From NCBI GenBank assembly GCA_029688995.1, contig JARULA010000009.1, forward strand, positions 1 through 64,000: DNA of 64,000 nt. The letters run 5' to 3'. The DNA comes from Marinilabiliaceae bacterium ANBcel2 (GTDB taxonomy: Bacteria > Bacteroidota > Bacteroidia > Bacteroidales > Marinilabiliaceae). A program made the translations under genes and the position numbers. Positions 18,981-41,160 of the stretch are shown piece by piece. Every line of letters starts with the position of its first letter. The first letter of the stretch is position 1. Below the pieces are notes generated by a model. The model had not been told where the DNA came from and did no database searches. It worked only from the letters and a program-made list of their open reading frames with translations.

Positions 18981-18985
18981 TTGTG

Positions 18986-21900: not shown

Positions 21901-22072
21901 AGGGATGTTTCCATTAGTATTTGATGACATTTTTCAGTCTATGGCTATCGCAATAATGTTTGGATTACTGGTAGGAACATTAATAACACTATTGGTTGTA
22001 CCGGTTTTATATGCACTATTTTATAAAGTGGATACAAAAAAGCTTAGGCTGATCGGTAAATCTAAAAAATAA
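18986..22072 (+). CDS. RND family efflux pump, inner-membrane permease (AcrB/MMPL-like)
   Basis: This 1028-residue proton-driven transporter has the usual 12-helix RND plan: TM1 (about 12-30), a large periplasmic loop (about 35-330), a helix bundle, a second loop (about 560-860), and a final helix bundle. The conserved helix-4 motif GMLVDNAIVVADG carries a single Asp, and a Lys-containing helix 10 (GLGLIGMMIKNTVVLLDQ) lies opposite it. This is the hydrophobe/amphiphile type, not the metal type. The start is the ATG at 18986 after an in-frame GTG. It sits between its adaptor (5-nt gap) and TolC (13-nt gap). A hydrophilic, Asn/Lys-rich insert near residue 500 joins the two halves. Substrates are likely drugs, bile acids or lipids. 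Confidence 0.93.
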   Translation: MLDKILTQRALLNAFLAILVIGGVWSFANLSKLEDPEIPVKAAVVVTSYPGASAEEVDKEVTDVLEEAIQELQDIDNIESVSMPGISQITIDIEGYVTKNELPQKWDHLRRKVNDATSSLPPGANTPVVNDDFGDVYGIFMALSSDGYSYSELDNYAEFLKQELLQVKGVKRINIIGQKTETVDIIFSPEQFASLGINPMAIVQTINDQGDVADAGSVVSGSKRIRLAPGNKFQSVEEIENLNIQGVAGNNFRLGDIATIERSFLTPAHTGFSYNNRESLGLAISMQTGDNIIKLGERIDKELADLILDIPVGIEVHTVFDQASQVQSAIREFTVNLATSVLIVIVVLLLSMGFRAGLLISSSLVFTILGTFIFMGFFNMTLDKVSLAAIVIAMGMLVDNAIVVADGILADLSKGVSRKEAFVKAAKQNSFPLIGATFIAILAFMPLAFNTTSAGEFLKPLFYVLTISLSLSWLLAMVQVPFMASLFYKNGYKNGNNKKSDTTKQSNNVNSGALYRYFGGIIRFALLHKTMFTLSTLIILLLSFLAYDWVNKDFFPQEEYDQFMLEYRLPQGADIYQVENDLYEMTNELLQWDEIDFVASSIGRSPVRYTLSRPMNSYNPRYGELIIGLKDAGDIFDVIEQAETYFSDKYIDADIRCRQYSPIGGDYKIQAMFTGPDSDVLNSLALEAKQIMHQEPGAIFVNDDWGNRTKVLAPVYSPVKGQRLNITRSAMANSLAMSSNGMPVGLYFEDNNRIPIVMKIDTNISDKPDQIESIPVWGRQSRNSVPLGQIVDEVTIESESYVINRYDGQRAIKVQCDPARDLTAPEVMDRIRADIENISMPRGYKMEWHGEYKSSNRANQALLENLPLALLLMVIIVIALFNNFKQPVIIFLIFPLAFIGIIAGFLLTRLNFGYLAITGGLGLIGMMIKNTVVLLDQVNIEIKSGKVPLIGLIRAAISRVRPVSMAALTTILGMFPLVFDDIFQSMAIAIMFGLLVGTLITLLVVPVLYALFYKVDTKKLRLIGKSKK

Positions 22073-22085
22073 AAAAGTTATAAAA

Positions 22086-23438
22086 ATGAAATTTATTAAA
22101 TATATCATAGTTGCTTTAATATTGCTTACTTCATCTATAGGAACAGTTTCCCAGGTTTCTGTAACAATAGATGAGTGTCGCCGGGATGCATTAGATTATA
22201 ATAAATCTCTTGATTTATCGCGCATGGATGAAGATTATGCAAAAGCTGCTGTAAAAGCTGCACGTACCGCTTATTTTCCTAAAATAGATGGTTCGGGTTC
22301 GGCTCTTTATATGCCCGATTTTGATGGCGTTGCTATGCCGGGATTTACTTTACCAACAACAGAAGAAGCTATGGCAGGTCATTTTGCAGGAACCAGCGGA
22401 GTAGATTTTCCTGGTTATGATTTAGGTATGGACGATCTACAGGTGTATATGGCAGGAGTAACAGCCGAGCAGGTTGTATATGCCGGCGGACAGGTTCGCA
22501 GGGGTAATGAGATGGCACAACGAGGGGCCGATATAGCAAGAGAAGCACTCAACCTAACCCGCTCCGAAGTTAAACATGCGGTTGATAAAGCTTTTTGGAG
22601 TCTTTATCTGGTTCAGCAACAAGTTGAAGTAACCGAAAGTCATGTTGATGCATTAACAACATTAGAAGATCAACTTAAAACACAATATCATCTGGGGATT
22701 ATTCCGCGAAGTGAAAAACTTAAAGTATCAGTTAAACGTACCGAAGCCGATTTACAATTGGTTGAAATTAAAAATATGCTTAATATTACATCGATGAATT
22801 TGGCACGTTTAACCGGTCGTTCATTAAATGAACCATTAAGAGCTTCAGTTTCAAATGATGAGGTAACCGAAAGTTATGAGGAAGTTGATTTTTCTTCAGA
22901 TTTCTCTTACCGTTCCGAATTAGAAATTTTAAGTCAGAAAAAAGAGATTGCACGTTTAGAGCGGCAGTCTGTATTGGGAGAGTATTTGCCACAGATTGGA
23001 GTTAATGTAGGTTATCGTTATATACATGTTCCCGATTTAACATCCGGTGACTGGAATATAACTATTGGAGCAGGGGTGTCAATTCCTATTTTTCACTGGC
23101 GAGAGAAAAAGCATAGAACCGATATGGCACGTATATCCGAAAAACAGGCAGCGATAAAATTAAGTGATACCGAAGATCAAATAGCTCTTGAGGTTGAGCA
23201 AAGCAGGCAAAGTTTGGATGCCGGATTTGACAGGGTTGAGGTTGCTAAGTTAAATCTTGAGCAAGCAAAAGAGACATATTCCGAAGTTGAGATCAGTTAT
23301 GATGCAGGCCTGAATAACATAACCGACCTGCTTAATGCACAGGTTGGTCTTCAAAGAGCATCTGCAATGCTGGTTGAAGCCCGTGCAAATTTAGAGATAT
23401 TAAAATCAGCCTATTTAAAGGCTTTAGGAACTCTCTAA
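22086..23438 (+). CDS. TolC family outer-membrane efflux channel
   Basis: This 450-residue outer-membrane factor has a signal peptide (about 1-23). Two homologous OEP halves are rich in heptad helices (AVDKAFWSLYLVQQQVEV in the first; AKLNLEQAKETYSEVEISYDAGLNNITDLLNAQ in the second). The latter contains the conserved Y-x-x-G-x-x-x-x-x-D-L-L-x-A signature. An unusual Gly/Met/Pro-rich segment lies near residues 75-120, where the first barrel loop should be. It completes the tripartite pump encoded upstream and is followed, 26 nt later, by a beta-barrel protein gene that is probably co-transcribed. Assignment to the TolC family is firm. Confidence 0.92.
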   Translation: MKFIKYIIVALILLTSSIGTVSQVSVTIDECRRDALDYNKSLDLSRMDEDYAKAAVKAARTAYFPKIDGSGSALYMPDFDGVAMPGFTLPTTEEAMAGHFAGTSGVDFPGYDLGMDDLQVYMAGVTAEQVVYAGGQVRRGNEMAQRGADIAREALNLTRSEVKHAVDKAFWSLYLVQQQVEVTESHVDALTTLEDQLKTQYHLGIIPRSEKLKVSVKRTEADLQLVEIKNMLNITSMNLARLTGRSLNEPLRASVSNDEVTESYEEVDFSSDFSYRSELEILSQKKEIARLERQSVLGEYLPQIGVNVGYRYIHVPDLTSGDWNITIGAGVSIPIFHWREKKHRTDMARISEKQAAIKLSDTEDQIALEVEQSRQSLDAGFDRVEVAKLNLEQAKETYSEVEISYDAGLNNITDLLNAQVGLQRASAMLVEARANLEILKSAYLKALGTL

Positions 23439-23464
23439 AATATTTAGTTAAGTAATAGACAATA

Positions 23465-24337
23465 ATGATTAAGTGTAGAGCTGTTCTTTTTTTATTTTTT
23501 TTATTAAAAAGTAGTTTTAGTTTATATTCACAAACATCAATTAGTGAAGCCTTTTCAGCCAGATCCTCACTGATGCCTAACAGGGCGGAAGTGGGGATTT
23601 ACAAAATGGCTATATCTGTGCCCGTTACATATAAAACATTGGGCAACGAGAATGGAGCTCTATTGCTTAATAGCGGATACTCTTTAACCAGTTTTCATTA
23701 TAATAGCGTATCTCAAGATGTTGAAGCAGACAATCAATATCATAATCTTTTCTTCAACTTCACCTATTTTAAGTCAGTTAATGAAGATAGGTACTATACT
23801 GCAATGCTTATTCCTACTGTTGAGTCAGATTTTCGGCAAAGCATAAACAGAAAAAACTTAGGATTAACCGCAATTGTTACTTACTCAATTCAAAATAGCA
23901 GTAAAAAGAGTGTTACCTCATTGGGTCTGGCTTATAATGTTCATCTTGGATTAAACTATCCGTTTCCCGTAATACTTTATAGCAGAAATCTTAATAATTG
24001 GTCTTATACGTTAGGGTTTCAAAATGAACTTAAATACACATTTAATGATACAGGTTCACTGGCATTTTATCTAAAACCCGACGGCTTTCGCGGATATTCA
24101 GGAAGAGTTGATATGGAGAGATTCTCCAGTCATGTAAGAATACAACATCAATCACTTTTATCAGGCTTTAACTATCAAAGGGGTATAAATGAGATGTTTA
24201 CTCTTACCTTTGAGGCTGCATACACACTCTATAACTCTTTAGAAGTACAGGATTACAACAACAATACTATTTTTGACTTTGGTATTGACAAAAATTTATA
24301 CTTTGGTTTAGGTATTAATTTAAAAAGCCCTTTTTAA
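23465..24337 (+). CDS. Outer-membrane beta-barrel protein (DUF6268-like)
   Basis: This 290-residue protein has a signal peptide (about 1-23) and then a mature sequence of alternating amphipathic strands (LLLNSGYSLTSFHY, YHNLFFNFTYF, RYYTAMLIPTVESDF), ending in a terminal Phe. That fits a small outer-membrane barrel of the DUF6268 type. It follows tolC by 26 nt and is likely the last gene of the RND operon. It might help the pump at the outer membrane or only share its regulation. No catalytic motif is present. The family call is moderate; the barrel call is stronger. Confidence 0.7.
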   Translation: MIKCRAVLFLFFLLKSSFSLYSQTSISEAFSARSSLMPNRAEVGIYKMAISVPVTYKTLGNENGALLLNSGYSLTSFHYNSVSQDVEADNQYHNLFFNFTYFKSVNEDRYYTAMLIPTVESDFRQSINRKNLGLTAIVTYSIQNSSKKSVTSLGLAYNVHLGLNYPFPVILYSRNLNNWSYTLGFQNELKYTFNDTGSLAFYLKPDGFRGYSGRVDMERFSSHVRIQHQSLLSGFNYQRGINEMFTLTFEAAYTLYNSLEVQDYNNNTIFDFGIDKNLYFGLGINLKSPF

Positions 24338-24572: not shown

Positions 24573-24623
24573 TCTTTACAAATTCAGCACATCATAAATG
24601 ATAATCAATGTTTGTAAAGACAA
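24570..24623 (+). repeat. 13-bp perfect inverted repeat spanning promoter and start codon
   Basis: TTGTCTTTACAAA (24570-24582) and its reverse complement (24611-24623) are separated by 28 nt. The left arm overlaps the last bases of the -7 element; the right arm starts directly after the ATG at 24608. It could be a DNA operator with two half-sites or an RNA hairpin presenting or hiding the start codon. Confidence 0.7.
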
Positions 24624-27376
24624 TTAAAATAGAAAGTGTAAATAAAAATCTGTCGGTTTTTATTCTTATGCTTATTATATCAACAACTCTCTTTGCAAAC
24701 GAAACATTCACTTTAGAAGGCGAAGTGGTTGATGTAGAAACAGGTGAACCCATACCTTATGTTACAATATACCTTAAAGAAGCAGATGTTTGGCAATTTA
24801 CCAATCAATTTGGATTATATACTTTTAAAAATATCGAAAAAGGTAAATATACTATAGTTACTCACTGCTTAGGTTATAATCAACACTCTTTTAAAATAGA
24901 TGTTAATAACAACAGCCATAAAACATTAGAACTCTACAAACAAAACCTTGAATTACAAGAAGTTGTAGTTACAGCCACTGAAAAAGCGAGTCAGCCCGGC
25001 ACATCAGTTATTAACCAGCAGGCAATGCAGCATATTCAGCCTTCTGGTTTTGGAGATCTGTTAGAGTTACTACCAGGGCATCGTTGGCAAGATATAAACA
25101 TGTCACAAGTTAACAGTATTAGTCTGCGACAAGCTGGCAGTGATGAAAACACAACTTTTGGTACGAGCTTTTATGTTGACGGAATGCCTGTTGGAGTTGA
25201 TGGCGGATTAGAAGGTGGAATATTACGAAGTGGTGATCTTAAATTGAGTGGCAGGTTAAATGTTGGCAGTGGGGTAGATATGAGAGAAATTCCTACCGAT
25301 GATATAGAAAGTATTGAGGTTATTCGCGGAGTTCCATCAGTAAGGCATGGAAACCTATCAACAGGGGCGGTTGTTATAAACAGAAAGTGGGGAACAACAC
25401 CACTTACCGTTAGGGTAAAAAGTGACCTTAAAACCAAATTGGCCTCAATTAACAAAGGTGTTAGGTTGGGTGATAACAGAGGTGTTTTAAATGTTGGCAC
25501 CGAAGTAGTTTCATTTGTAAATGATCCTCGCAATCCCTTAGAATCTTATCTGCGAAATAAAACATCATTAAAATATTCTAATAGTTATAATTTTGGTAAT
25601 AGTTCGCTTCGGTTGAACACCGGTATTGATTACTTAATTACCATTGATGAGGATAAAGAAGATCCCGAGTTGAACTACGGATTAAAAGATTATTATCGTT
25701 CAAACCTTTCAAAATTAAGTTATAGCTTATCTTCAAGCTATAATAGTGCGGGTAACATCTTAAAATCTTTAACATTTAGTTTTAGAGCCGATTATTCAAA
25801 AAACAGCTTAAAGCGCGAGCGATTGGTCGCTTTGACCGGACCGGTACCGCAGCCTACATCTATAGAACCGGGTAAACGCGACGGAGAGTATTTACCCTCA
25901 AGATATAAAGCCCGGTTTGAAAGAGATGATCAGCCCTTTTCTCTATTTTCATCTATTCACTTTTCATTATCAGGAAGAGGGGACCATTTTCAACATAGAT
26001 TTAATGGTGGTGCAGATTGGAGATATATTAAAAATTTTGGGAAAGGTGATATTTATGATATAAGTCGTCCAATTTATGCTCCGTCTCGTGGTCGCCCTTA
26101 TGATTTCAGTTCGGTTCCCGGTTTACATAACATCTCTTTTTTTGGTGAAGAAGAGTTATCATGGTCAATAGGAAACAGCACTCTTAAAGTAACACCCGGA
26201 GTCAGGGTCTCTATGTTATCAGGATTAAGTGCCGATTATGATATAAAAAATAAAATGTTTACCGATTTTCGTGGCCATATAATTTATTCATTTCCTCAAT
26301 TTAATTTTTTAGGCAATAATATTAAAGTCTCTTTAAATGGTGCCATAGGAGAAATGACACGAATGCCTGCACTATCACACCTTTATCCTCAGGAAAATTA
26401 CTATGATATTATAGAGCTAAATTATTATGCACAGGATCCTGAATTGCGAAGATTATATGTTAATACTCAAATCAAAGATATTACTAACTATAACCTTCAG
26501 CCTGCTAAAAACTTCAAAAAAGAGGTAGGAATTGATATCGAGGTTGGTAAAACCCGATTTCTTGCTACTATATTTAATGAAGAGATGACAAATGGTATAA
26601 TGTCGGCAAGTCGTTACATCCCATTTACTTATAAAAGTTATGACCCCTCTTCGGTACCTACCCATGGTTTATCTGCTCCTCCTGATTTGGATATGTTTGA
26701 ATATGAAGAGAGAAGCCGTCTATATTCATACAGTCAATATATTAACGGATCCGATTTGAATAAAAAAGGGGTAGAGTATCAACTGATTTCTCCACGTATA
26801 GAAAGACTTCAAACCCGAATTTCAATTTCAGGCGCCTGGTTTAAAACACGTTATCATATTTCGCAACCCGAATATACCTCAAGATCATTTATCTATAAAG
26901 GAAAAGAGTATCCATATGTTGGAGTTTTTGAGCGGGGAAGAGATAGCGAGGAGAGAGAATTACATAATACAAACATACAGTTTGATACTCATTTACCTAG
27001 TCACAGGCTACTCTTTACTATATCAGTACAAAGCACATGGTACGAAAAAAGCAGACGCCTTGTCGACGATGGAACACCAACAGCTTATCTTGATAATTAT
27101 GGAAATTACCATAAATACAGCAGTTCCCATCAGGAAGACCCAATGCTCCGATTATTAATGCGATCATACACTTCTTACTATTTTGATACAAACCGGAGGG
27201 CAATAGATGTGGGGGTTAATCTAAAACTTAAAAAAGAGATAGGGGATAATATGAGCTTTTCATTTTTTGTGAATCGCATTATGAATTACCTGCCCGACTA
27301 TACAACACCTTCTGGAACCGTGCAATCACGCCGTGCAACACCCTATTTTGGAATGGAATTTACATTATCAATATAA
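24608..27376 (+). CDS. TonB-dependent receptor with carboxypeptidase-regulatory domain (metal-uptake-like operon)
   Basis: This 922-residue outer-membrane receptor starts with a long basic n-region and signal peptide (to about residue 33). A carboxypeptidase-regulatory domain follows (about 36-120; LEGEVVDVETGEPIPYVTIYL). The plug (about 125-260) contains the conserved IESIEVIRGVPSVRHGNLSTGAVVINR block, which is especially well kept in metal-chelate receptors. The barrel ends in YFGMEFTLSI. It heads a run of eight same-strand genes including a DUF4876 lipoprotein, an ABC exporter-like pair and a PepSY-type membrane protein. That company suggests iron, haem or another metal chelate, but no ligand motif is visible. 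The start codon lies between the arms of a 13-bp inverted repeat, so translation may be regulated. Confidence 0.9.
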   Translation: MFVKTIKIESVNKNLSVFILMLIISTTLFANETFTLEGEVVDVETGEPIPYVTIYLKEADVWQFTNQFGLYTFKNIEKGKYTIVTHCLGYNQHSFKIDVNNNSHKTLELYKQNLELQEVVVTATEKASQPGTSVINQQAMQHIQPSGFGDLLELLPGHRWQDINMSQVNSISLRQAGSDENTTFGTSFYVDGMPVGVDGGLEGGILRSGDLKLSGRLNVGSGVDMREIPTDDIESIEVIRGVPSVRHGNLSTGAVVINRKWGTTPLTVRVKSDLKTKLASINKGVRLGDNRGVLNVGTEVVSFVNDPRNPLESYLRNKTSLKYSNSYNFGNSSLRLNTGIDYLITIDEDKEDPELNYGLKDYYRSNLSKLSYSLSSSYNSAGNILKSLTFSFRADYSKNSLKRERLVALTGPVPQPTSIEPGKRDGEYLPSRYKARFERDDQPFSLFSSIHFSLSGRGDHFQHRFNGGADWRYIKNFGKGDIYDISRPIYAPSRGRPYDFSSVPGLHNISFFGEEELSWSIGNSTLKVTPGVRVSMLSGLSADYDIKNKMFTDFRGHIIYSFPQFNFLGNNIKVSLNGAIGEMTRMPALSHLYPQENYYDIIELNYYAQDPELRRLYVNTQIKDITNYNLQPAKNFKKEVGIDIEVGKTRFLATIFNEEMTNGIMSASRYIPFTYKSYDPSSVPTHGLSAPPDLDMFEYEERSRLYSYSQYINGSDLNKKGVEYQLISPRIERLQTRISISGAWFKTRYHISQPEYTSRSFIYKGKEYPYVGVFERGRDSEERELHNTNIQFDTHLPSHRLLFTISVQSTWYEKSRRLVDDGTPTAYLDNYGNYHKYSSSHQEDPMLRLLMRSYTSYYFDTNRRAIDVGVNLKLKKEIGDNMSFSFFVNRIMNYLPDYTTPSGTVQSRRATPYFGMEFTLSI

Positions 27377-27431
27377 CATAACCCTAAACAATAAATAATA
27401 AACAATTAAACCATAAATAAAAAGTAGATAT

Positions 27432-28634
27432 ATGAAACAGATTAAGATTATTTTAGCGATGATGCCATTTATTTTTTTTGCATCATGTAGTGACGATGAT
27501 GATAAAGTCGCAATGACCGAATTCTTGGTAAGTGTAGTAATGCCTGATGTAATGGGTGATAGTGTAACACCCGAAGGATTATCTGTTGAATTAACCAACA
27601 TGGGTAATGGGCGAGAGACTATCGGAGAGGTTGATGATACAGGTAGTTATACCGTTACAATTGAAGAGGGTGTATATGAAATTGTTGTTTCAGGTGAAAA
27701 GAGTTACACCTCACAAATAGGCGAAGATCAATTTGAACAAACCGTAACAGTAACCGGATTAGCTGAAAATATTAGTATATCGGGTAACTGGGATGAAAAA
27801 GAGATTGCTCTGTTTATAGCGCCATCAAATCAGGGATGGGTTTTTAAAGAGTTATATGTAACGGGTTCACAAACGCCCGAGGGAAGAATGTATTATAAGG
27901 ATAAATATTTTGAAATATATAATAATACCAATGAGGTTTTATATGCCGATGGTATTTCTATAGGAGAATCAGATCATACCACATCATCAGATATAAATCC
28001 CTGGGCTGATATAATCGATGATTATTTTGTTACTCACGTTGTTTATACAATACCCGGTGATGGTACAGAGGTTCCTGTTAATCCCGGAGAAAGTTTAATA
28101 ATTGCCGACATTGGTATTGACCATACTCAGGATAATCCCAATGCAATAGACCTTTCTTTTGCCGATTTTGAGTGGTACGATGATCATCCTTTAGATGTTG
28201 ACGTACCCGATGTGCCAAATATGATAAAATATTTTAGTAGTTCAGCATCAATTTGGACACCTCATAATCGCGGTTTTAAATCGTATGTTATTTTTAGATA
28301 TGATGAGGGATCAATGGAAGAGTATATGGATAATTATATGGTAGAGAGAGTCGCCCCCAGCGGTTCAACTCTTATCAGGTACAAAGTTCCAAACTCTATC
28401 ATTCTCGATGCTGTAGAGATGGGCACTCCATCCGATTTTTCAAGTAAAGCATTAAGTCCCGCTTTAGATTTAAGTTATATAAATTGTGGTGATGGTGATG
28501 AATCGCGCTTTGGAAAAGTTGTACGCAGGCGTGTTCAGTCTCGAGAAAATGGCAGAGTTATCTATCAGGATACGAATAATTCGGCAGTTGATTTTCATAG
28601 TACCGTAGAACCACAGCCCGGAGTTATTGAATAA
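27432..28634 (+). CDS. DUF4876 family lipoprotein
   Basis: This 400-residue lipoprotein has a signal and lipobox (FASC, Cys19) followed by SDDDD. An N-terminal beta-sandwich resembling a carboxypeptidase-regulatory fold (about 30-120) is followed by a larger domain typical of DUF4876: FKELYVTGSQTPEGRMYYKDKYFEIYNNT and PVNPGESLIIADIGIDH resemble a lamin-tail-like beta fold. Near the end, PALDLSYINCGDGDESRFGKVVRRR carries one of only two mature cysteines. The gene lies 55 nt after the TonB receptor and 12 nt before a barrel protein, an arrangement that recurs for this family in Bacteroidota. It is probably a surface or periplasmic partner of the receptor. No function is established. Confidence 0.8.
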   Translation: MKQIKIILAMMPFIFFASCSDDDDKVAMTEFLVSVVMPDVMGDSVTPEGLSVELTNMGNGRETIGEVDDTGSYTVTIEEGVYEIVVSGEKSYTSQIGEDQFEQTVTVTGLAENISISGNWDEKEIALFIAPSNQGWVFKELYVTGSQTPEGRMYYKDKYFEIYNNTNEVLYADGISIGESDHTTSSDINPWADIIDDYFVTHVVYTIPGDGTEVPVNPGESLIIADIGIDHTQDNPNAIDLSFADFEWYDDHPLDVDVPDVPNMIKYFSSSASIWTPHNRGFKSYVIFRYDEGSMEEYMDNYMVERVAPSGSTLIRYKVPNSIILDAVEMGTPSDFSSKALSPALDLSYINCGDGDESRFGKVVRRRVQSRENGRVIYQDTNNSAVDFHSTVEPQPGVIE

Positions 28635-28646
28635 TACTTTTAAGAT

Positions 28647-30170
28647 ATGTTATATCGAATTGTTTTGATAGCATTAATATTTAACCTTAGCCATACAAAG
28701 ATGTCGGGAGGGGAGAGCAACTCTCTTCTTTCCCGATATTATCAATGGTATAGCGATGAAAACATTCTATTTTTTTCTGTAGAGAATAATCCTGCTATCA
28801 GACAATATATTCCTTTAAATCACTTTAATATATTGTCGGGAAATTTTTCATCTCGTAATAGTAACACTCTTCATTATACTTTTAAAGGAGATAAAAACAG
28901 ACAGTATTACGGAAATGCCGAAGGCTTTTTTAAAGATGAACAAACCTCACTTTATGGTTCTGCACAATATATTAACGGGCGAACTCAAAATATTAGATGG
29001 AGTTCAGTTGCCGACCCCGAAAGGATTGGGCCATATCATGCAGCTGACAGTACTTATAGGGATAACGATTTTGAAACTTATCTGCTAAATGGCGCTATAA
29101 CCTGGCAATTATTTTCAGGAGTTTCTGGTATTTCCGGGAGTTATCGTGCCGAAAGTCGTTATAGCACTAAAGATCCTCGAAACCGCACCGTAGTATCAGA
29201 TTTTGATATTTCTAAAGGATGGGCTGGTAAGATAATGGATGAATATTTGCTCGGATTATCATTTAAGTATGGTACTTATACACAAGATTTATCAATTACC
29301 AGTTCGCAATCCGATCGTAAAGATATGTTCTATTTTATGTATGGATATGGTATGTATAATAAATCGGTATCAGGAACCAGCCGAAATTACTCTACAGCTT
29401 ATTCAGGTAATAGTTATCTTGTTTCAGCTCAGATTTTACCTTTAAAAGAGAGTGGCTTCTTTTTTGATTTAAGTTTTGAGAAAGAGGTTATGGATGCCGA
29501 CTATCACCGAAGGCGACGTGGTCGTTTTATTACTTTTAATCAAAATCATTTAGCGGGATATCAATGGCAGCAAAATTTAACCAAACATAGAGTTGGATTA
29601 AACTATACCCATAATAAAGGCGATGGAACCGAGTATTATTATGAAACAGTTATAGTGGATGAGTCCACCATGACCTCCGAGATAAAACTTCTCTCTAAAG
29701 CAACAAAATATTTAAGAGACAAGCATGATTTCTCTTTTCAATATAATACCTGGCGCTCATTCGGAAATTATAAAATTAAACCATCGTTACAAAGTGGTAT
29801 AAAAAATTACTCATCTCAATATCGAACTACACCTTACAAAGAGGAAGTTAAACAGTGGTACACTACAGCTGCTCTTGGTTTATATCATATTACCGAATCA
29901 GCACTTTCGGGTGTGGATGTTTATTTATCGGGATTTTCTTCATATGAGGATGATCTTATAGTTCCTCATGATAACCGGTTTGTTGAAACAGTAATGGTTC
30001 CCGATCATGATTATCGCAGTGGAGATAGAATAGTTGCGGGGATTACCGCGCGATATGTTAAAAAAATGAATAATAATAATGCATGGCAGGTTTTATCCAG
30101 ATTCAACCTTGTTAATTCCAATGGGGAAACATCCGCAGGAGTTGATTTTACCATTGCCTATGTTTTGTGA
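28647..30170 (+). CDS. Outer-membrane beta-barrel protein (DUF6850-like)
   Basis: This 507-residue protein has an N-terminal signal (about 1-22). The mature sequence is made of amphipathic strands rich in Tyr, Ser, Arg and Gly (LHYTFKGDKNRQYYGNAEGFF, FSFQYNTWRSFGNYKIKP, SAGVDFTIAYVL). It has no plug domain, so it is a barrel but not a TonB receptor. The DUF6850 label is from memory of Bacteroidota proteins found beside DUF4876, and is less certain than the barrel fold. It lies 12 nt after the DUF4876 gene and 22 nt before an ABC ATPase. It could form a second outer-membrane route or assemble with the receptor. Confidence 0.7.
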   Translation: MLYRIVLIALIFNLSHTKMSGGESNSLLSRYYQWYSDENILFFSVENNPAIRQYIPLNHFNILSGNFSSRNSNTLHYTFKGDKNRQYYGNAEGFFKDEQTSLYGSAQYINGRTQNIRWSSVADPERIGPYHAADSTYRDNDFETYLLNGAITWQLFSGVSGISGSYRAESRYSTKDPRNRTVVSDFDISKGWAGKIMDEYLLGLSFKYGTYTQDLSITSSQSDRKDMFYFMYGYGMYNKSVSGTSRNYSTAYSGNSYLVSAQILPLKESGFFFDLSFEKEVMDADYHRRRRGRFITFNQNHLAGYQWQQNLTKHRVGLNYTHNKGDGTEYYYETVIVDESTMTSEIKLLSKATKYLRDKHDFSFQYNTWRSFGNYKIKPSLQSGIKNYSSQYRTTPYKEEVKQWYTTAALGLYHITESALSGVDVYLSGFSSYEDDLIVPHDNRFVETVMVPDHDYRSGDRIVAGITARYVKKMNNNNAWQVLSRFNLVNSNGETSAGVDFTIAYVL

Positions 30171-30192
30171 TTATTGATAATATTAATTAAAT

Positions 30193-31071
30193 ATGGATAC
30201 AGTTATTGAATGTCGTAATTTAACTCACTATTACGGTAACAGATGCATTTATGAAAACCTTAATTTTTCTATTCCACAAGGTAGAATAGTTGGTCTTTTG
30301 GGCAAAAACGGAACGGGAAAAACCACAACCATTAATATTTTGAATGGTTATTTGCAGCCCCGATCCGGAGAATGTTTAATGTTAGGCTATAGAGCAGGAA
30401 TGTTACCTCCCACTGTGAAGCAAAAAATAGCTCTGTTAATGGAAGGTCATGTTCAGTATTCATTTATGAATATTGGTCAAATAGAGAAATTTTATTCTGC
30501 ATTTTACCCTAAGTGGGATAAGGCGCCTTTTTATGAACTAATGAGCAAATTAAAAATAGCTCCTTCTCAAAGAATTTCTAAAATGTCTTGCGGACAGCGA
30601 TCTCAGGTTGCATTAGGTATTGTGTTGGCACAAAATTCTGATCTGTTAATTTTGGATGATTTTTCTATGGGCCTTGATCCAGGCTATCGACGTTTGTTTG
30701 TAGATTATTTAAGCGAGTATGCACGCTCTCAAAACAAAACAGTTTTTGTTACTTCCCATATTATACAGGATATGGAACGTTTAATTGATGACTGTTTAAT
30801 ACTTGATTACGGTAAATTGCTCCTTCAGCAATCTGTTCAACAATTTCTTAGCGAATTTAAAAGATATCGTCTGGTAAGCTCTCAGGAGCCTGATTGGAGA
30901 GATATGCCTGTTGTTCATCCCGAAAAAATCAGAGATAAAATAGAGTTCTATTCAACATCCGACAAAAAAACTTTATCTGCTTGCTTATCACGTCAAAATA
31001 TTAACAACCAACTTGTTGAAGAGTCATTAACACTTGAAGAAGCTTTTATTGGTTTAACAGGGAAATATTAA
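30193..31071 (+). CDS. ABC transporter ATP-binding protein with atypical signature and Walker B
   Basis: This 292-residue cytoplasmic ATPase drives the membrane protein encoded 4 nt downstream. Walker A is GKNGTGKT (37-44), the Q-loop region is around 79-95, the signature reads MSCGQRSQ (131-138) instead of LSGGQ, and Walker B is LLILDDFSMGLDP, so the usual catalytic Glu is Asp156. The H-loop is His189 (VTSHI). The type resembles YtrB/EcsA-like two-gene ABC systems, which act as exporters or membrane remodellers rather than binding-protein importers; no substrate-binding protein gene is present. The Asp for Glu change may slow hydrolysis. Its operon position links it to a metal-uptake-like receptor system. 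Confidence 0.88.
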   Translation: MDTVIECRNLTHYYGNRCIYENLNFSIPQGRIVGLLGKNGTGKTTTINILNGYLQPRSGECLMLGYRAGMLPPTVKQKIALLMEGHVQYSFMNIGQIEKFYSAFYPKWDKAPFYELMSKLKIAPSQRISKMSCGQRSQVALGIVLAQNSDLLILDDFSMGLDPGYRRLFVDYLSEYARSQNKTVFVTSHIIQDMERLIDDCLILDYGKLLLQQSVQQFLSEFKRYRLVSSQEPDWRDMPVVHPEKIRDKIEFYSTSDKKTLSACLSRQNINNQLVEESLTLEEAFIGLTGKY

Positions 31072-31075
31072 AATT

Positions 31076-31744
31076 ATGATAAAATCACTATTATATAAAG
31101 AATGGATAAAAACCAGATGGTTTCTCCTTGCAATAGCTATAGCCGGGGCAATAATTGAGATATATATGTTTTTGCGTGTTGGCAGGTCTATTCGACTTGT
31201 TGGTGCAGAACATATTTGGGATGTAGTAGTTAATCGCGATCAGTTTCTTTTTTATCACATTAAATACTTTCCTTTGGCAGCCGGAATAGTATTAGGGTTA
31301 TCACAATTTATACCCGAAGTTATAGATAAGCGAATTAAACTAACATTTCATTTACCGCTTCCCGAAAAAACTATTACATCAGTAATGACAGGATATGGTT
31401 TTACTGTTTTGCTGGCACTATTTTTAATTCAGTACGTATCTCTTTTAGCCGGTATAAGATCTCTTTTTGCTTTTGAGATTACTGTTACAGCAGCTTTAAC
31501 ACTTTTGCCCTGGTTTGTTGCAGGAATTTGTGCTTACCTGGCATGCGTTTTTGTTTGTGTAGAGCCATCATGGCGAATGAGGATACCCAATTTTTTAATA
31601 GGTGTAGCTATAATACGAACACTCTTTATTTCTGGTTTTCCCGGTGCATATATTAAGATGTCGCTATTTATGATAGCCATAACAGTTATGTTTACACTTT
31701 TTTTATGGTTATCGGTTTATCGTTTAAAAATTGGTCGACAATAA
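31076..31744 (+). CDS. ABC transporter-associated integral membrane protein
   Basis: This 222-residue protein has about six hydrophobic segments (near 14-33, 60-78, 100-122, 130-155, 165-180 and 190-215). It starts MIKSLLYKEWIKTRWF, a pattern usual for ABC-2-type permease subunits. It lies 4 nt behind the ABC ATPase gene and is almost certainly its membrane partner. It is short for an ABC-2 permease, and the DUF4857 protein encoded next also has membrane helices, so the full transporter may combine both. No substrate clue is visible. Confidence 0.78.
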   Translation: MIKSLLYKEWIKTRWFLLAIAIAGAIIEIYMFLRVGRSIRLVGAEHIWDVVVNRDQFLFYHIKYFPLAAGIVLGLSQFIPEVIDKRIKLTFHLPLPEKTITSVMTGYGFTVLLALFLIQYVSLLAGIRSLFAFEITVTAALTLLPWFVAGICAYLACVFVCVEPSWRMRIPNFLIGVAIIRTLFISGFPGAYIKMSLFMIAITVMFTLFLWLSVYRLKIGRQ

Positions 31745-31784
31745 AGAGTGGGTTACAGTAAAAAATATAAAATAGAAAAATTCG

Positions 31785-33002
31785 ATGAAGACAATTAAAG
31801 CCATATTAATAGTTATTACAACCCTTATATTTGCCTGGGTATTGCCATGGATATATGATCTATCTACCGATACTCCTCAAAACTATCCCTTTACCTATTA
31901 TAGCAGTGTTGCTGAGACCTTTGGCATGAGAAAAAATATAGATGGAGAAACAGTTTTAAAGGATGACAGGGGAAATGAATATTCCGAAGCACAGTTTGAT
32001 TCCATATTGCCAATGTTATATTACAGGCAGTTAGCACGCGACGGACATCTGCCAGATTCATTACACGGTGTAGATATTTCTCAAAGATTACTCTCTAATG
32101 AAAGCTTTGTTTTTAGGTATCGACCAAGAGACAAAAACAGTCCGTCCATCCCTCTCTACACCCTTATAGAATCGATGCCGCGTCGTGTTGATCTGGAGAT
32201 GCCGGGTGATATGTTTAGGTTAGATGATGAAATTCAGTTCATTAAACCCGAAACCAATACTGTAGATTGGGATAAAAGCTCCTATTTTAACGAGATGCTG
32301 AATCGGCGTGGTTTTGTTTGGCCTGCAAATATAGTTGCAGGAAACCCCACAACACGTAAATCTTATGACGAAGGATATTTAATTACCGATAATAACCATA
32401 ATCTTTATCATTTTAAAATGGTAAATAGTCGTCCCTATCTTCAAAACATTGAGCTTTGCGAAGATGTTATTCCTGTATGGTTAGAGGTTACCGAATATCG
32501 CTCACGTAACTATTACGGCTTTGTTATCTCTCAGGATGGTCGTTTGTTTGTAATTCATACAGGAGGATACCGTGTAGAGGAGATACCGGTGCCATCCTTT
32601 AATCCGCAAACCGATAATCTTTTAATAATGGGTAACCTCTTTTACTGGAACATTCAGGTTACCACTGCAAATAAAAGAACAATTTATGCTGTATGCTCAA
32701 ACAGTTATGATCGGGTAAATTCCATCACATTTGATGCACCCGATAGTAGTGATAATGTAAAAAAAGGGTTATTCCCTTTTGAAATATCTTTTACATCTTC
32801 TAATGATGCATATGTATATCCGCGAGTTCAATTTTTTGGGTTTTACTATTTAGCTCTCTCCCTGTTATTAGCTTTAGGTTATATAGTTTTTACAAAGCGA
32901 GCAAATCGTGCGATTGACTATTTTTCTCTAATTTTAATTGCTCTAACAGGTTTTATTGGTGTTGCATCAGTCTTAACAGTAGGTGATTTAAAACATGTTT
33001 AA
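31785..33002 (+). CDS. DUF4857 domain membrane protein
   Basis: This 405-residue protein has one N-terminal transmembrane helix (about 5-25). A large non-cytoplasmic domain (about 30-345) contains propeller-like stretches (EGYLITDNNHNLYHFKMVN, ISQDGRLFVIHTGGYRVEEIPVP). Two helices close the C-terminus (about 350-370 and 378-398). The overall plan and the early SSVAETFGMRKNIDGETVLKDDRGNEYSE-type region (positions about 40-68) fit DUF4857. In Bacteroidota this family occurs beside the same ABC pair. It may be the extracytoplasmic part of that transporter, interacting with periplasmic cargo. Its role has not been established. It starts 40 nt after the permease gene. Confidence 0.78.
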   Translation: MKTIKAILIVITTLIFAWVLPWIYDLSTDTPQNYPFTYYSSVAETFGMRKNIDGETVLKDDRGNEYSEAQFDSILPMLYYRQLARDGHLPDSLHGVDISQRLLSNESFVFRYRPRDKNSPSIPLYTLIESMPRRVDLEMPGDMFRLDDEIQFIKPETNTVDWDKSSYFNEMLNRRGFVWPANIVAGNPTTRKSYDEGYLITDNNHNLYHFKMVNSRPYLQNIELCEDVIPVWLEVTEYRSRNYYGFVISQDGRLFVIHTGGYRVEEIPVPSFNPQTDNLLIMGNLFYWNIQVTTANKRTIYAVCSNSYDRVNSITFDAPDSSDNVKKGLFPFEISFTSSNDAYVYPRVQFFGFYYLALSLLLALGYIVFTKRANRAIDYFSLILIALTGFIGVASVLTVGDLKHV

Positions 33003-33063
33003 TAAACTATTATTTACTATATCTACAAAAAAAATGAATAAGTTAAATTTAAAATTAAATAAA

Positions 33064-33606
33064 ATGAAGTGTTCAGTTTTAATAATTGTATTTACTGTAA
33101 TGTTATCAGGTTGTACAAGTTGTGGCAGTTCTGGAAGTCCGGATGATTTTGTTGAGCGAGAACCTGCTGTTGATGTTGAAAGTGCAATAACCATTTCACA
33201 GTTAATGGATATGGCCTCAGATAATGTAGGAGAGGAGGTTATTATTGAAGGTGTAATTACCCATGTTTGCCGTCATTCAGGAAAAAGATGTTTTATCAAC
33301 GATACTTCAACCGATACATCAATTAGAGTTGAAGCCAAAGGTAACATAGGAGGATTTTACTCTGAGCTTAAAGGCAACAAAGTTGTGATAAAAGGGTCAA
33401 TAAACGAGAATCGTTTGTCCGAAGAGTATATCGATGAGTGGGAGCAAAAAACCCTTGAAGAGCAGCAACAAGCCGAGGTCGATCAAAATCAGTGTAGTGC
33501 CGAACTGGCCAATATTGAACAGATGCGAAACTGGATGGCAGCCAATGATAAAAACTTTTATTCTGTTTTTTTTATTGAAGGAGTTGATTACGAAATAGTT
33601 GAATAA
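33064..33606 (+). CDS. OB-fold lipoprotein of unknown function
   Basis: This 180-residue lipoprotein starts at the ATG at 33064, which gives a clean signal and lipobox (LSGC, Cys17). In-frame starts at 32995 and 33034 would add a Lys/Asn-rich extension. The mature part has an OB-fold-like core (ITISQLMDMASDNVGEEVIIEGVITHV, then VCRHSGKRCFI and SIRVEAKGNIGGF). The paired cysteines and His of HVCRHSGKRC could bind metal or form a redox pair. A charged helix and a final Cys-containing helix follow. Its stop codon overlaps the ATG of the PepSY gene by one base, so the two are translationally coupled. It is probably periplasmic; a role in metal handling is inference. Confidence 0.72.
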   Translation: MKCSVLIIVFTVMLSGCTSCGSSGSPDDFVEREPAVDVESAITISQLMDMASDNVGEEVIIEGVITHVCRHSGKRCFINDTSTDTSIRVEAKGNIGGFYSELKGNKVVIKGSINENRLSEEYIDEWEQKTLEEQQQAEVDQNQCSAELANIEQMRNWMAANDKNFYSVFFIEGVDYEIVE

Positions 33607-34136
33607 TGAAAAAAAAGAATAAAGTAAGATTGTGGTTACGTCGTCTTCATCGAGATGCAGGTTACTTTGTAGTGGGTATCACCTTAGTTTATGCCTTGTC
33701 AGGAATATTTCTGCATCATAAAATGGCAGTTAAAACCACTGTTGGAGAAATAGATTTCACAGATTCATTAACACAAGAAGATCTTGCAGCAAAGTGGGAG
33801 GTAAAAACTGATCAACCATCTATTACATACTCCGATGAACGAACAACTGTTATACATTTTTATTTCCCCGGAGGTATGGGGGAGTATAACAAATTGACTG
33901 GGTTAGCAACTTATGAAACATTTAGGGATCGCCCTGTAATGAAATTTATGAGTCAGTTGCATGAAAATCAGGTTAAAGGATGGGGTTATGTTGCCGATTC
34001 TTATGCAGTAATTTTAATATTTTTAGCCATATCAGGACTATTTATAGTCCCCGGTAAAAACGGATTTTTACAACGGGGTATTTGGTGGTTTAGTGCAGGC
34101 GTCCTGGTAGTTCTTTTATTTGCGTTTATATACTAA
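33606..34136 (+). CDS. PepSY-associated transmembrane protein
   Basis: This 176-residue inner-membrane protein has the PepSY-associated TM start RLHRDAGYFVVGITLVYALSGIFLHH (residues about 13-38), with His at both ends of the first helix. A periplasmic segment of about 90 residues and two further helices follow (about 128-147 and 157-176). Related proteins (including the C-terminal part of FoxB-type and XusC-type proteins) reduce or help release iron from chelates at the inner membrane. That fits a metal-uptake operon. It is shorter than typical PepSY proteins of about 350-500 residues and holds only one PepSY-like unit. Its last 21 bp overlap the convergent CusA-like gene. Confidence 0.78.
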   Translation: MKKKNKVRLWLRRLHRDAGYFVVGITLVYALSGIFLHHKMAVKTTVGEIDFTDSLTQEDLAAKWEVKTDQPSITYSDERTTVIHFYFPGGMGEYNKLTGLATYETFRDRPVMKFMSQLHENQVKGWGYVADSYAVILIFLAISGLFIVPGKNGFLQRGIWWFSAGVLVVLLFAFIY

Positions 34137-37100
34137 TAGATAAAGTGTTGGCAAAACAAGTAAGGTGGCAGCCGGAGCTGTCATCATACTTGCCACTACT
34201 ACCTGTGCAAGAGGTTGTTGTGTTTCTGATCCAATTCCTGTAGATATAGCAGCCGGGAATAACCCTATACCGGCTGCCATTGCAATCATCATTACAGCCC
34301 TTAAACGCAGCTTAGAACCTTCGGTTACAGCATCTATAAGAGACTTCCCATCTTTTCTTAGTTTATTTATAAAACTTACCAGTATTACCCCATTTAGGAC
34401 CACTTCGCCTAAAACACAAATAAATCCTACTGTTGCCGAAATACTAAAATCGGTGCCCGTTATAATCAAAATAAGTACTCCTCCTATCATTGCAAAGGGT
34501 ACCGAAGCAAGTACCAGTAAACAATCTCTTAAATTTCTAAAATGAATATAGAGCAGAAAAACTATTAGAATTATTGAGAGAGGAATAACTACTATTAATC
34601 TGTCAATAGCATCTTGCAGTTGTTGAAACTCTCCGGCCCACTCCATTCGGTAGCCCGTTGGTAAATCCACCTGCTCCAGTATGCTTGCTTCTGCTTCGTT
34701 TACAGTGCCTTGCAAATCTCTTCCTCTTACGCTAAAGGCAATAGGAATATATCTTGCATTACCTTCTCTGTAAATAAATGATGCTCCCGATTGAGTATAT
34801 ACTTTTGCAACCTCTTTAAGAGGTATATATCCCGCACCTGTGGATACAGGAATATTTTTAATTTCTTCTTTAGTAGTACGAAATTCGGGCAGAGTTCTAA
34901 CAACAACATCAAAACGGCGATCCCCGTCTAATCTTTGAGTTACAGCTTCTCCTCCTACAGCAGCCTGCACAATTTTATTTACATCCTTTGTAAGAACACC
35001 ATACCTGGCAGCGCGTTCACGATCTATTTCAACAAGCATATTAGGTTGTCCCAATTTTGTATAGATAGCAAGATCGGCAATTCCTTCAACCCCTTTCATT
35101 GTCTCTTCTATTTCGGCCGCTTTTATTTCAAGAGTTTCTAAATCCTCCCCAAATAATTTCACCACATTTTCTCCTCTTACACCTGCCATTGCTTCTTCTA
35201 CATTGTCCTGGATATTTTGGGAAAAACTAAAAGCAACACCAGATATTTGAGAAAGAGTGGTCTCAATTTCACTTATTAACTCCTCCTTATTTAACCCATC
35301 TCTCCACTCATTCATTGGTTTAAGATCAACAAACATATCAACATTAAACCAGCCTATAGCCTCGGTTCCTTCATCATCCTGTCCCAGCTGACTAACTACA
35401 GTTGTAACTTCAGGATGATTATCCAGTATTAACTCCCTCATCTCATCTACCAGCTTCTCCGATTTGGTAAAAGAGATGCTATTTGGCATAGTCGCTCTTA
35501 CCCATAAGTTACCCTCTTCTAACCGGGGCATAAATTCCCCACCTATAAAGGGAATTGTCGACAGGGTGCCTGCCAAAACAATAGAGCTTATTGCTAATGT
35601 AGCTTTAGGCCATTTTACACACTTATTAATAATGGGATTATACCCTGCTTTTAGCCATTTTACGATAAAGGTATCTTTACGTGACGATCTTCCTTTAAAG
35701 AAAAAGGCTGCACAGGCCGGAGAGTAGGTGAGAGATAGAAATAGAGCTGCAGCCAGTGCAAATCCATAAGTAATTGCAAGAGGCCCAAAAATTCTGCCCT
35801 CAACACCCTGCATGGTAAAAAGTGGTAAAAAAGCCACAATTATAATAGCAATCGAAAAAAATATTGGTCCGGCAACCTCCTTTGCTGCAGAGAGTATTGT
35901 ATCTTTTACGTTTGCATAACCTTTTACCTCTCTTCCTGATAAACGTCGATGGATATTCTCTACCATTATAACAGATGCATCAACAATAATTCCCAAATTT
36001 AAAGCACCCATCGAAATAAGATTAGCTGAATCTCCTCTAATAACCATCATTAAAAATGTTACAAGAAGAGATAGGGGTATTGAAATTGTTACTATCAGTG
36101 CCGCCTTATAATTCCCTAAAAAAGCCACCATTATAAATCCAACCAGCAATATTGCGGCGAGCAAAATATGTTGAACAGTATTTACTGTTACATTAACCAG
36201 CTCAGTGCGATCATAGTAGGGAACAATCTTCATCCCATCAGGGAGAATTCCTCCCTCATTAATCTCTTTTACTTTCTCTTGCACCTTTTCAAGAGTTGGT
36301 AGTGTGTTTTGTCCACGGTACATGTTAACAATTCCGGTAACAACATCGGAGTTATAATCTTTACCAACCTTTCCCAGTGGTACTTTTTGACCAATTTTTA
36401 CTTCCCCAAGCTGATGAACATATATAGCTGTTCCATCTCTCTCATCAACCATAACATTGGCAATATCATTAATAGAGCTAAACAAGCCAACCCCTCTTAC
36501 ATTGTAGCTTTGTTCTCCTATATTCAAATAGTTTCCCCCCACATTCGAATTGCTCAACTCTATTGCGTCCATTACATCCGATATAGAGACATTGTACGCA
36601 ATTAGCTTATTGGGGTCTATTTCAACATGGTACTCCTTAGTTGGTCCTCCAAATCCTACTACATCAATGATTCCGGGAACCTGTCTAAACTGTCTTTCTA
36701 CAATCCAATCCTGCGCTTCTTTAAGCTCCATGGTTGTATAACCTTCACCCACTAATTCATAGCGGTAAATTTCTCCCAGGGCTGACCACGGACTAAGTTC
36801 GGGAGATACATCATCGGGCAGATCTGCCATTTGCAGTCTGTTAATTACCTCCTGACGCGCTTTTTCATAATCAGTTCCCCATTCAAAATAGACTTTAATA
36901 TTAGATAATCCAAAAAGAGATATTGACCTTATCACATCAATACCACGTATTCCATTTAATTCAGTTTCAAGCGGCACAGTAATTTGACGCTCCATCTCTT
37001 CGGCCGACCATCCCGACTTTTGTACTATTACCTCTACCAATGGAGGAGTAGGATCGGGGTAGGCTTCTATATTTAATTTTGTGTAAGCCCATATTCCTAT

Positions 37101-37181
37101 AATAAAAAGAGTTGCTGAAACCGTTATTGCAAATCCTTTTTTACTAACCGAAGAATCAATTATTTTGTCAATCCACTTCAT
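34116..37181 (-). CDS. CusA/CzcA family heavy-metal RND efflux pump
   Basis: This 1021-residue proton-driven pump has the heavy-metal RND signature near its start (LNIEAYPDPTPPLVEVIVQ, SAEEMERQITVPLETELNGI). The helix-4 motif GIIVDASVIMVENIHRR contains the relay Asp; two periplasmic loops and twelve helices complete the plan. The MVEN element separates this family from drug-type RND pumps. The DPTPP variant is found in a Bacteroidota branch whose metal is not certain (Cu/Ag, Co/Ni, Zn or Cd). It is the last gene of the tolC-adaptor-pump operon, 37 nt after the adaptor. Its 3' end overlaps the PepSY gene by 21 bp, and no terminator is visible between them. Confidence 0.92.
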   Translation of the reverse strand: MKWIDKIIDSSVSKKGFAITVSATLFIIGIWAYTKLNIEAYPDPTPPLVEVIVQKSGWSAEEMERQITVPLETELNGIRGIDVIRSISLFGLSNIKVYFEWGTDYEKARQEVINRLQMADLPDDVSPELSPWSALGEIYRYELVGEGYTTMELKEAQDWIVERQFRQVPGIIDVVGFGGPTKEYHVEIDPNKLIAYNVSISDVMDAIELSNSNVGGNYLNIGEQSYNVRGVGLFSSINDIANVMVDERDGTAIYVHQLGEVKIGQKVPLGKVGKDYNSDVVTGIVNMYRGQNTLPTLEKVQEKVKEINEGGILPDGMKIVPYYDRTELVNVTVNTVQHILLAAILLVGFIMVAFLGNYKAALIVTISIPLSLLVTFLMMVIRGDSANLISMGALNLGIIVDASVIMVENIHRRLSGREVKGYANVKDTILSAAKEVAGPIFFSIAIIIVAFLPLFTMQGVEGRIFGPLAITYGFALAAALFLSLTYSPACAAFFFKGRSSRKDTFIVKWLKAGYNPIINKCVKWPKATLAISSIVLAGTLSTIPFIGGEFMPRLEEGNLWVRATMPNSISFTKSEKLVDEMRELILDNHPEVTTVVSQLGQDDEGTEAIGWFNVDMFVDLKPMNEWRDGLNKEELISEIETTLSQISGVAFSFSQNIQDNVEEAMAGVRGENVVKLFGEDLETLEIKAAEIEETMKGVEGIADLAIYTKLGQPNMLVEIDRERAARYGVLTKDVNKIVQAAVGGEAVTQRLDGDRRFDVVVRTLPEFRTTKEEIKNIPVSTGAGYIPLKEVAKVYTQSGASFIYREGNARYIPIAFSVRGRDLQGTVNEAEASILEQVDLPTGYRMEWAGEFQQLQDAIDRLIVVIPLSIILIVFLLYIHFRNLRDCLLVLASVPFAMIGGVLILIITGTDFSISATVGFICVLGEVVLNGVILVSFINKLRKDGKSLIDAVTEGSKLRLRAVMMIAMAAGIGLFPAAISTGIGSETQQPLAQVVVASMMTAPAATLLVLPTLYLLVYKRK

Positions 37182-37218
37182 GGTTTACGGTATTGAAAGT
37201 TGTTGTTTGTTGCCCTTA

Positions 37219-38334: not shown

Positions 38335-38345
38335 ACTGTTTTGTA

Positions 38346-39632: not shown

Positions 39633-39719
39633 TCCTGTATAATTAAGTTACGTTACTGTTTAGGAGCAACTTGCATAAAAAAAATATTTTTAAGCAATTA
39701 GAGTCCCAAAAATCGACCG

Positions 39720-39756
39720 CAAATATGATTTTTAGCACCTTAAAATCACCTTAAAA
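39720..39756 (-). promoter_or_regulatory. Promoter with tandem direct-repeat operator upstream of tolC
   Basis: On the plus strand CACCTTAAAA occurs at 39736-39745 and again at 39747-39756. The 11-bp period puts both copies on one face of the helix, the usual binding mode of OmpR-family regulators. A -7-like element (CATATTTG on the minus strand, one mismatch) lies at 39720-39727, so the repeats cover the -33 region as in activated promoters. A degenerate third copy is near 39768-39777. Confidence 0.6.
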
Positions 39757-39766
39757 AGGATTAAAT

Positions 39767-41137: not shown

Positions 41138-41160
41138 TTTACAGTAAAGAAGTTATTTTG

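Follow-up and report, generated by a model that had tools for sequence, protein, structure and literature searches.

The release of iron from ligands imported through TonB-dependent receptors is only partly known in Bacteroidota. Among described systems, XusABC of Bacteroides (BT2063-2065), which is induced by iron starvation, comprises a TonB receptor, a surface lipoprotein and an inner-membrane PepSY reductase (PMC13142918), and the iron regulation of a locus matching the one described here, BT3625-BT3633 of B. thetaiotaomicron, is already in print (PMC10434189). Here we describe an eight-gene operon at positions 24608-34136 of a 64,000-nucleotide stretch of Marinilabiliaceae bacterium ANBcel2 (contig JARULA010000009.1, positions 1 to 64,000; this whole stretch is termed the window), belonging to a widespread set of genes whose expression, in the cases measured, is strongly repressed by iron and which unites a receptor, a probable reductase and an ATP-binding cassette (ABC) complex that lacks a substrate-binding protein. 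With slightly better than even confidence we read the operon as serving, under iron starvation, the uptake of a ligand that carries iron (haem, a ferric chelate or some other carrier), with reductive release in the periplasm and an ABC complex that may act periplasmically; we infer both the identity of the ligand and the role of the ABC complex. The operon anatomy, a permease-DUF4857 fusion, an invariant Asp in the ATPase, and links to polyferredoxin and DUF4920 are worked out here, with novelty claimed only within the literature searched.

The eight open reading frames (ORFs) all lie on the forward strand and are separated by narrow intergenic gaps:

24608..27376, + strand: TonB-dependent outer-membrane receptor, 922 residues, with a CarboxypepD_reg-like N-terminal domain, plug and barrel
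27432..28634, + strand: DUF4876 lipoprotein, 400 residues (Pfam PF16215, 4e-51)
28647..30170, + strand: DUF6850 predicted outer-membrane barrel, 507 residues (Pfam PF21012, 4.7e-64)
30193..31071, + strand: ABC ATPase, 292 residues (Pfam ABC_tran, 2.7e-20)
31076..31744, + strand: small permease (p222) with several transmembrane (TM) segments, 222 residues, ABC-2-like by eye
31785..33002, + strand: DUF4857 protein, 405 residues (Pfam PF16149, 1.1e-95)
32995..33606, + strand: HxCxH lipoprotein (gene 7), an ORF of 203 residues with the start revised to 33064; lipobox assigned by eye
33606..34136, + strand: mini-PepSY membrane protein, 176 residues (Pfam PF16357, PepSY_TM_like_2, 3.2e-10)

Successive gaps of 55, 12, 22, 4, 40, -8 and -1 nt agree with the eight tightly packed genes, some overlapping, seen in the initial annotation of this DNA; the 8-nt overlap at the start of gene 7 is probably a start-codon artefact, the Met at 33064 (M24) being conserved in 31/31 relatives of gene 7. 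The only DUF4857 match and the only PepSY_TM_like_2 match in this genome both lie inside the operon, and the closest named DUF4857 relatives, in Marinilabilia and Geofilum, share 52-56% identity with the window protein. Pfam returned no significant match for the 222-residue permease or the 203-residue gene 7.

The operon resembles Xus in having a plug-bearing TonB receptor (Plug 2.7e-11, CarbopepD_reg_2 3e-19 in Pfam) and a PepSY membrane protein with conserved His residues; in NCBIfam the receptor gave weak matches to siderophore, PqqU and haemin receptors, every one of them far below cut-off. The two systems nevertheless differ in several respects, in that XusB is a seven-bladed propeller of the DUF4374 family, to which none of the eight operon genes has a Pfam match, whereas the window lipoprotein belongs to DUF4876, the family of 4q1z, and has a transthyretin/CNA-like N-terminal part. 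Furthermore, Xus in the excerpted description of PMC13142918 comes without a DUF6850 barrel, an ABC complex, DUF4857 or an HxCxH lipoprotein, and the PepSY protein of the window is of a mini type.

In B. thetaiotaomicron, one of three species grown in brain heart infusion with 5 ug/ml haemin and depleted of iron with 150 uM dipyridyl, BT3625-BT3633 is raised 36.7- to 128-fold on depletion, and its consecutive genes are annotated as DUF4857, ABC ATPase, PepSY, DUF4876 and TonB receptor (PMC10434189). We equate this locus with the window operon by its annotated gene content and by three neighbourhoods (L009, L023 and L026) that carry the same families in the B. thetaiotaomicron order, L009 and L023 being from named Bacteroides. 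BT3625-BT3633 differs from the window in an additional gene, BT3630, annotated as a fimbrillin, and in the order of two of the gene modules defined below (B and C); the excerpted account in PMC10434189 describes it only as a regulated locus, naming neither permease, barrel nor HxCxH lipoprotein, and a literature search on BT3633, BT3631 and BT3625 found this paper alone. In P. gingivalis, PG1019-1022 (including DUF4876 and receptor genes) are raised 20.8- to 214.5-fold by iron depletion (PMC10434189), and a P. gingivalis DUF4876 gene shows a log fold change of -5.42 in excess haemin (PMC10470040); PG1019 is named in further expression papers (e.g. PMC4236598, PMC12119571). The metal-responsive expression on which the initial annotation made its reading depend is seen for the matching B. 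thetaiotaomicron locus, and its description of the system as poorly described holds for function but not for iron regulation.

The operon is widely conserved and consists of three separable modules, i.e. module A (TonB receptor, DUF4876 lipoprotein and DUF6850 barrel), module B (ABC ATPase, small permease and DUF4857) and module C (HxCxH lipoprotein and mini-PepSY). Across 247 genomes of the same order, with statistics not corrected for phylogeny, DUF4857 occurs in 30, DUF4876 in 41, and DUF6850 in 39 over the cut-off or 47 at E <= 0.001. DUF4876 is present in 29 of the 30 DUF4857 genomes (Fisher 4.5e-27) and lies within 12 kb at 29 of 35 DUF4857 places, confirming the co-occurrence for which a survey of the two families had been proposed; DUF6850 is co-present in 28/30 DUF4857 genomes and in 39/41 DUF4876 genomes. 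Among 395 genomes of the phylum, 15 carry DUF4857, and by the listing 12 of these fall outside the class.

Seventy-four neighbourhoods (22+20+20+12), designated by L numbers, were fetched and mapped by means of profiles of the window proteins. Five loci were dropped, namely L007, L010, L012 and L022, whose contig is duplicated, and L019, which represents another strain of the L022/L025 species. The counts cover 59 DUF4857 loci, in which near-duplicates (e.g. L003/L005, L015/L016, L032/L033) were kept. Presence counts are lower bounds, since genes were missed or misread by ORF calling in GC-rich loci (e.g. L013, L014, L018, L020, L055, L069), and are at least 52 for the ABC ATPase, 47 for the permease, 48 for the receptor, 43 for DUF4876, 42 for DUF6850, 32 for the HxCxH lipoprotein, 28 for PepSY and 11 for a membrane polyferredoxin. 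Invariance of individual residues was counted only over full-length, stop-free members above length and score limits. Module B is also found apart from module A, e.g. in L046 and L053.

On the outer-membrane side, the lipobox Cys of DUF4876 (Cys19) is present in 48/48 members, and at least two of the six residues that follow it are acidic in 36 of 46, a pattern shown by 0 of 27 HxCxH lipoproteins; for two of the gene 7 sequences (L021, L027) an earlier Cys was taken, the later Cys being, by eye, also followed by fewer than two acidic residues. Acidic residues shortly behind the lipobox Cys tend to mark surface lipoproteins. Because such residues follow the Cys in DUF4876 and not in gene 7, the former is predicted to face outward and the latter to face the periplasm; a lipoprotein export signal is also mentioned in PMC13142918. 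DUF4876 is therefore probably a surface-exposed receptor partner or ligand binder. Its solved relative is BT_1938 (4q1z; Z 32.1, root-mean-square deviation 7.0 over 352 residues), and residues 25-131 of its model match transthyretin/CNA-like domains. No ABC-type substrate-binding protein gene was found by Pfam among the eight operon genes or seven scanned neighbours, as had been noted initially, yet DUF4876 is a candidate ligand-binding lipoprotein at the surface. A relative of the barrel in L067 matches both the DUF6850 and OMP_b-brl models; a literature search on DUF6850 and DUF4920 turned up no paper.

On the redox side, H15, H38 and H119 of the mini-PepSY protein are present in 23/23 members, and gene 7 carries H90 and C92 in 31/31 and H94 in 30/31 (the HxCxH motif). 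The PepSY_TM proteins include a few characterised ferrisiderophore reductases, among them FoxB, in which two haems are held by conserved His residues located at either membrane face (PMC13038864); the mini-PepSY protein is a probable haem-dependent metal reductase. Gene 7 is probably a DUF4920-related periplasmic lipoprotein: a relative in L067, found with the window-family profile at 38 bits, matches DUF4920 at 6.8e-12. The gene 7 profile found no meaningful solved relative in the PDB. The polyferredoxin of the 11 DUF4857 loci comprises Fer4_5 and dicluster domains and has no counterpart among the eight window genes by Pfam. Bacteroidales loci with polyferredoxin and without PepSY (L044, L045, L047, L051, L053) suggested that the two exclude one another, which is refuted by L065, L067 and L068, where polyferredoxin, HxCxH lipoprotein and PepSY stand together. 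Pfam did not recover an HMA-like metal-binding domain that had been suspected by eye in the polyferredoxin, and none is claimed. The reductive step initially proposed is plausible, given the invariant PepSY His residues, the known PepSY_TM reductases and the polyferredoxin of other loci, and the initial reading as uptake of a metal chelate with reduction is partly supported overall. Near a DUF4857 operon that has no PepSY gene (L042:1-2612) lie ApbE (Pfam) and, by eye, a thioredoxin-like gene, possibly another electron route. In L074 two CbiX-family genes (Pfam) flank the mini-PepSY gene, and look-alike genes have the same arrangement in L075.

The ABC pair is unusual in its ATPase. In ABC ATPases the residue after the Walker B Asp is the catalytic Glu, and in this family Asp occupies that position (LDD for LDE) in 54/54 members scored, which suggests a slow ATP cycle. 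The signature motif is SCGQR in 40 of the 54, so that the unusual ATPase motifs remarked on at the outset are a family signature; all 41 aligned ATPases retain the residues of Walker A and the His of the H-loop. As a control within the same genome, where 17 Walker B sites were read among 30 of 45 ABC matches, Asp was found at one (at L098). In the permease, which has many hydrophobic segments by hydropathy, K8, E9, K12, Q77, P80, E81, P94, G108 and G220 are invariant over 38 sequences.

In three genomes of one genus of another class (L074-L076), near TonB receptors, permease and DUF4857 form a single polypeptide, with the permease profile running from residue 7-24 to 221-234 and the DUF4857 profile from 235-252 to 643-661. 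DUF4857 is therefore taken to be part of the ABC complex; of the three lipoprotein or periplasmic factors counted in the initial annotation, this one is not a free factor. These fusion loci also lie near a cytochrome c-like gene. The AlphaFold model of the window DUF4857 protein (mean predicted local distance difference test score 91.4) has one N-terminal TM helix, a beta-rich periplasmic domain and two C-terminal TM helices, and the periplasmic domain appears weakly propeller-like. AztD was dropped as a fold identity, its Z of 7.9 being tied with those of unrelated propellers; NirN, methylamine dehydrogenase, YCF48 and BtuK1 were likewise rejected (Foldseek query TM-score, TMq, 0.17-0.24), and only the propeller class is retained, with caution.

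A machine acting in the periplasm is favoured for this complex because it has no binding protein, possesses a periplasmic domain of its own, keeps the company of periplasmic metal and electron proteins, and carries an Asp variant that suggests a slow cycle. The machinery for the copper centre of N2O reductase, NosRDFYL, likewise has an ABC ATPase and permease without a substrate-binding protein and with a periplasmic partner, and some DUF4857 loci similarly include a polyferredoxin and a lipoprotein that has potential metal-binding residues. In contrast to Nos, the window operon is associated with a TonB receptor and with iron, its eight genes show no Nos family match beyond general ATPase similarity, and its DUF4857 domain looks propeller-like in the model, unlike the periplasmic domain of NosD, which is a beta-helix. 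No NosD or NosY match appeared in Pfam, the permease PDB profile or the DUF4857 fold searches. In a bolder reading, held to be clearly less likely than not, ATPase, permease and DUF4857 may be a new ATP-driven periplasmic machine with no transmembrane cargo, in which a slow cycle would move the propeller-like domain to strip or reshape an iron ligand together with the haem reductase or polyferredoxin and the HxCxH lipoprotein, a NosFYD-like principle that would have evolved independently.

Taken as an iron uptake system, the operon could work as follows. The DUF4876 surface lipoprotein would capture the ligand and pass it to the TonB receptor, as XusB does to XusA, with the DUF6850 barrel as a partner, and the receptor, by its family function, would take the ligand into the periplasm using TonB energy. 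At the periplasmic face, the mini-PepSY protein (elsewhere also the polyferredoxin) may reduce the metal, as its family and invariant residues suggest, the HxCxH lipoprotein serving as a putative metal or redox partner, and Fe(II) could then enter through FeoB, which is encoded elsewhere in the genome. In the least certain step, the ATPase, permease and DUF4857 would form one complex without a substrate-binding protein, whose ATP cycle may move the DUF4857 periplasmic domain onto the ligand, the reductase or the emptied carrier, with no import.

A number of observations weigh against this reading. Dipyridyl binds metals besides iron, and the regulation data come from B. thetaiotaomicron and P. 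gingivalis, not from the organism of the window. A second B. thetaiotaomicron locus with DUF4876 and a receptor, BT1933-39, is raised only 3.5- to 7.4-fold (PMC10434189), and PG_1019/PG_1020 also change in a study of diguanylate cyclase and oxidative stress (PMC10101095). A Fur box upstream of the receptor is not supported, the window scoring 13/19 to a Fur-box consensus (p ~0.10 against rough shuffles), and across loci 2 of 50 receptors reached p <= 0.05, the mean best score of 11.3 comparing with 11.2 in 450 control genes (no formal test). Of 41 genomes, 12 carry module A but no DUF4857, e.g. those of L057-L064. PepSY_TM_like_2, over the cut-off in 111 of the 247 genomes, is not significantly tied to DUF4857 by genome (18/30 versus 93/217, p = 0.08), and the lipoprotein adjoins mini-PepSY in 10 of 15 picked places outside any DUF4857 operon. 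Because the modules separate and this pair is found away from DUF4857 operons, module C may serve more generally as a redox pair of the envelope. At the sampled places (L108-L122), no constant neighbour of the stand-alone pair was seen. The fold matches of DUF4857 are weak and mostly to beta-propellers (best Z 7.9; TMq 0.17-0.28 in 17 matches with E <= 0.001), and neither the p222 nor the PepSY profile found a PDB relative, p222 giving no chain at E <= 1 in a library that contains NosF entries and presumably the NosY chain.

The main rival to a machine acting in the periplasm is export of the emptied ligand, in which the ABC pair would be an ordinary ABC-2 exporter that, once reduction has released the metal, expels either the emptied chelator or some toxic by-product, with DUF4857 as periplasmic adaptor and DUF6850 as a possible exit. 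The best family matches of the ATPase are indeed of exporter type, i.e. PmtA in NCBIfam (143 against a cut-off of 350 bits), DrrA and GldA, likewise below cut-off, and ABCA-type chains in the PDB, with NosF (7o0y_B, E 1.9e-18) lower. The lack of a substrate-binding protein, which sets the operon apart from classical ABC importers, would suit an exporter, as would the near-constant presence of the barrel in module A, although the barrel could serve either reading, and efflux of periplasmic ferric xenosiderophores is known in Bradyrhizobium (ExsFGH; PMC10760861). The ligand is, however, expected to stay periplasmic, which would leave an inner-membrane exporter without obvious cytoplasmic cargo; Pfam found no HlyD-type adaptor or TolC-type gene among the eight genes, and the slow cycle suggested by the invariant Asp also speaks against an ordinary exporter. 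We consider export unlikely, and the initial suggestion that the pair exports or recycles the chelator is not demonstrated, the periplasmic company of DUF4857 pointing about equally to an ATP-driven periplasmic machine.

Protein or haemoprotein piracy of the Fus type, in which an iron protein would be bound and imported, proteases of the periplasm would cleave it and its metal would be reduced, appears improbable. Fus and ydd/pqqL are, like the window operon, TonB-receptor operons tied to iron limitation, and ydd/pqqL, a Fur-regulated and Fus-related operon of a TonB receptor and an M16 protease (PMC6793856), shares that protease type with some DUF4857 relatives. By Pfam, operons of another class encode an M16 peptidase (L067) or an M28 peptidase (L066), and a BLAST cluster with the L067 and L058 M16 proteins covers nine fetched loci, in eight of which it lies within 6 kb of the core. 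Against this, no protease gene, M16 included, was found by Pfam in the window operon, six of the nine loci belong to another class, and strains deleted for yddB or pqqL showed no defect when grown in iron-limited lysogeny broth (PMC6793856); conversely, a PepSY reductase and a DUF4857 complex are not mentioned for Fus or ydd/pqqL in the excerpted accounts. The L067 operon also encodes a YCF48-like protein that bears a type IX sorting tail.

Acquisition of copper or another metal with a periplasmic metallochaperone, in the style of CrtA-CrpH, is less probable again. In its favour are the HxCxH lipoprotein, the ties of the PepSY protein CrpH and the receptor CrtA to copper in Bordetella (PMC13038864, PMC12914433), and a CusA/CzcA efflux operon adjoining the window operon; the published inducers, though, are dipyridyl and haemin limitation, the latter in the case of the P. 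gingivalis DUF4876 gene. A locus for fimbrillin synthesis or secretion, as the B. thetaiotaomicron authors suggested in calling theirs a fimbrillin locus after BT3630 (PMC10434189), and as secreted-looking proteins beside several loci might also suggest, is very improbable, there being no such gene in the window, the remaining genes being of transport and redox types, and the large proteins encoded at the equivalent site of the Bacteroides loci L009 and L023 matching InlB-repeat and GLUG models and not fimbrillin. BT3625-BT3633, filed under fimbrillin synthesis, thereby gains a better reading, and the proposal offers predictions, i.e. haem on PepSY, a DUF4857 complex and a periplasmic metal site.

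Several loci show further variation. A FecR-type gene directly precedes the receptor in L066, L069, L071 and L072 (by Pfam in L071, by the same BLAST cluster in the others), which suggests surface-signalled control in those lineages. DUF4857 is duplicated in L046 and L055, next to SusD-like proteins (by eye), and L046 has a PKD_2 protein in place of DUF4876. Lone module A adjoins proteins of 718-751 residues of one BLAST cluster in L057, L058, L059 and L061; both L057 members bear HEAT repeats, and the N-termini look protease-like by eye only.

In the window, the operon is preceded directly and on the same strand (17949-24337) by a resistance-nodulation-division (RND) efflux set of adaptor, permease and outer-membrane efflux protein, followed by a DUF6268 protein. 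The efflux operon downstream (34116-41844, - strand, convergent) encodes a CusA/CzcA-type RND permease above the NCBIfam cut-off, an adaptor, an outer-membrane factor, a histidine kinase (best match the PorY family, next a heavy-metal family, below cut-off) and a response regulator (best match a heavy-metal family, below cut-off), and at its 3' end shares 21 nt with the PepSY gene. Beyond it, at 42049-46749, lies the gene for an ankyrin-repeat protein of 1566 residues.

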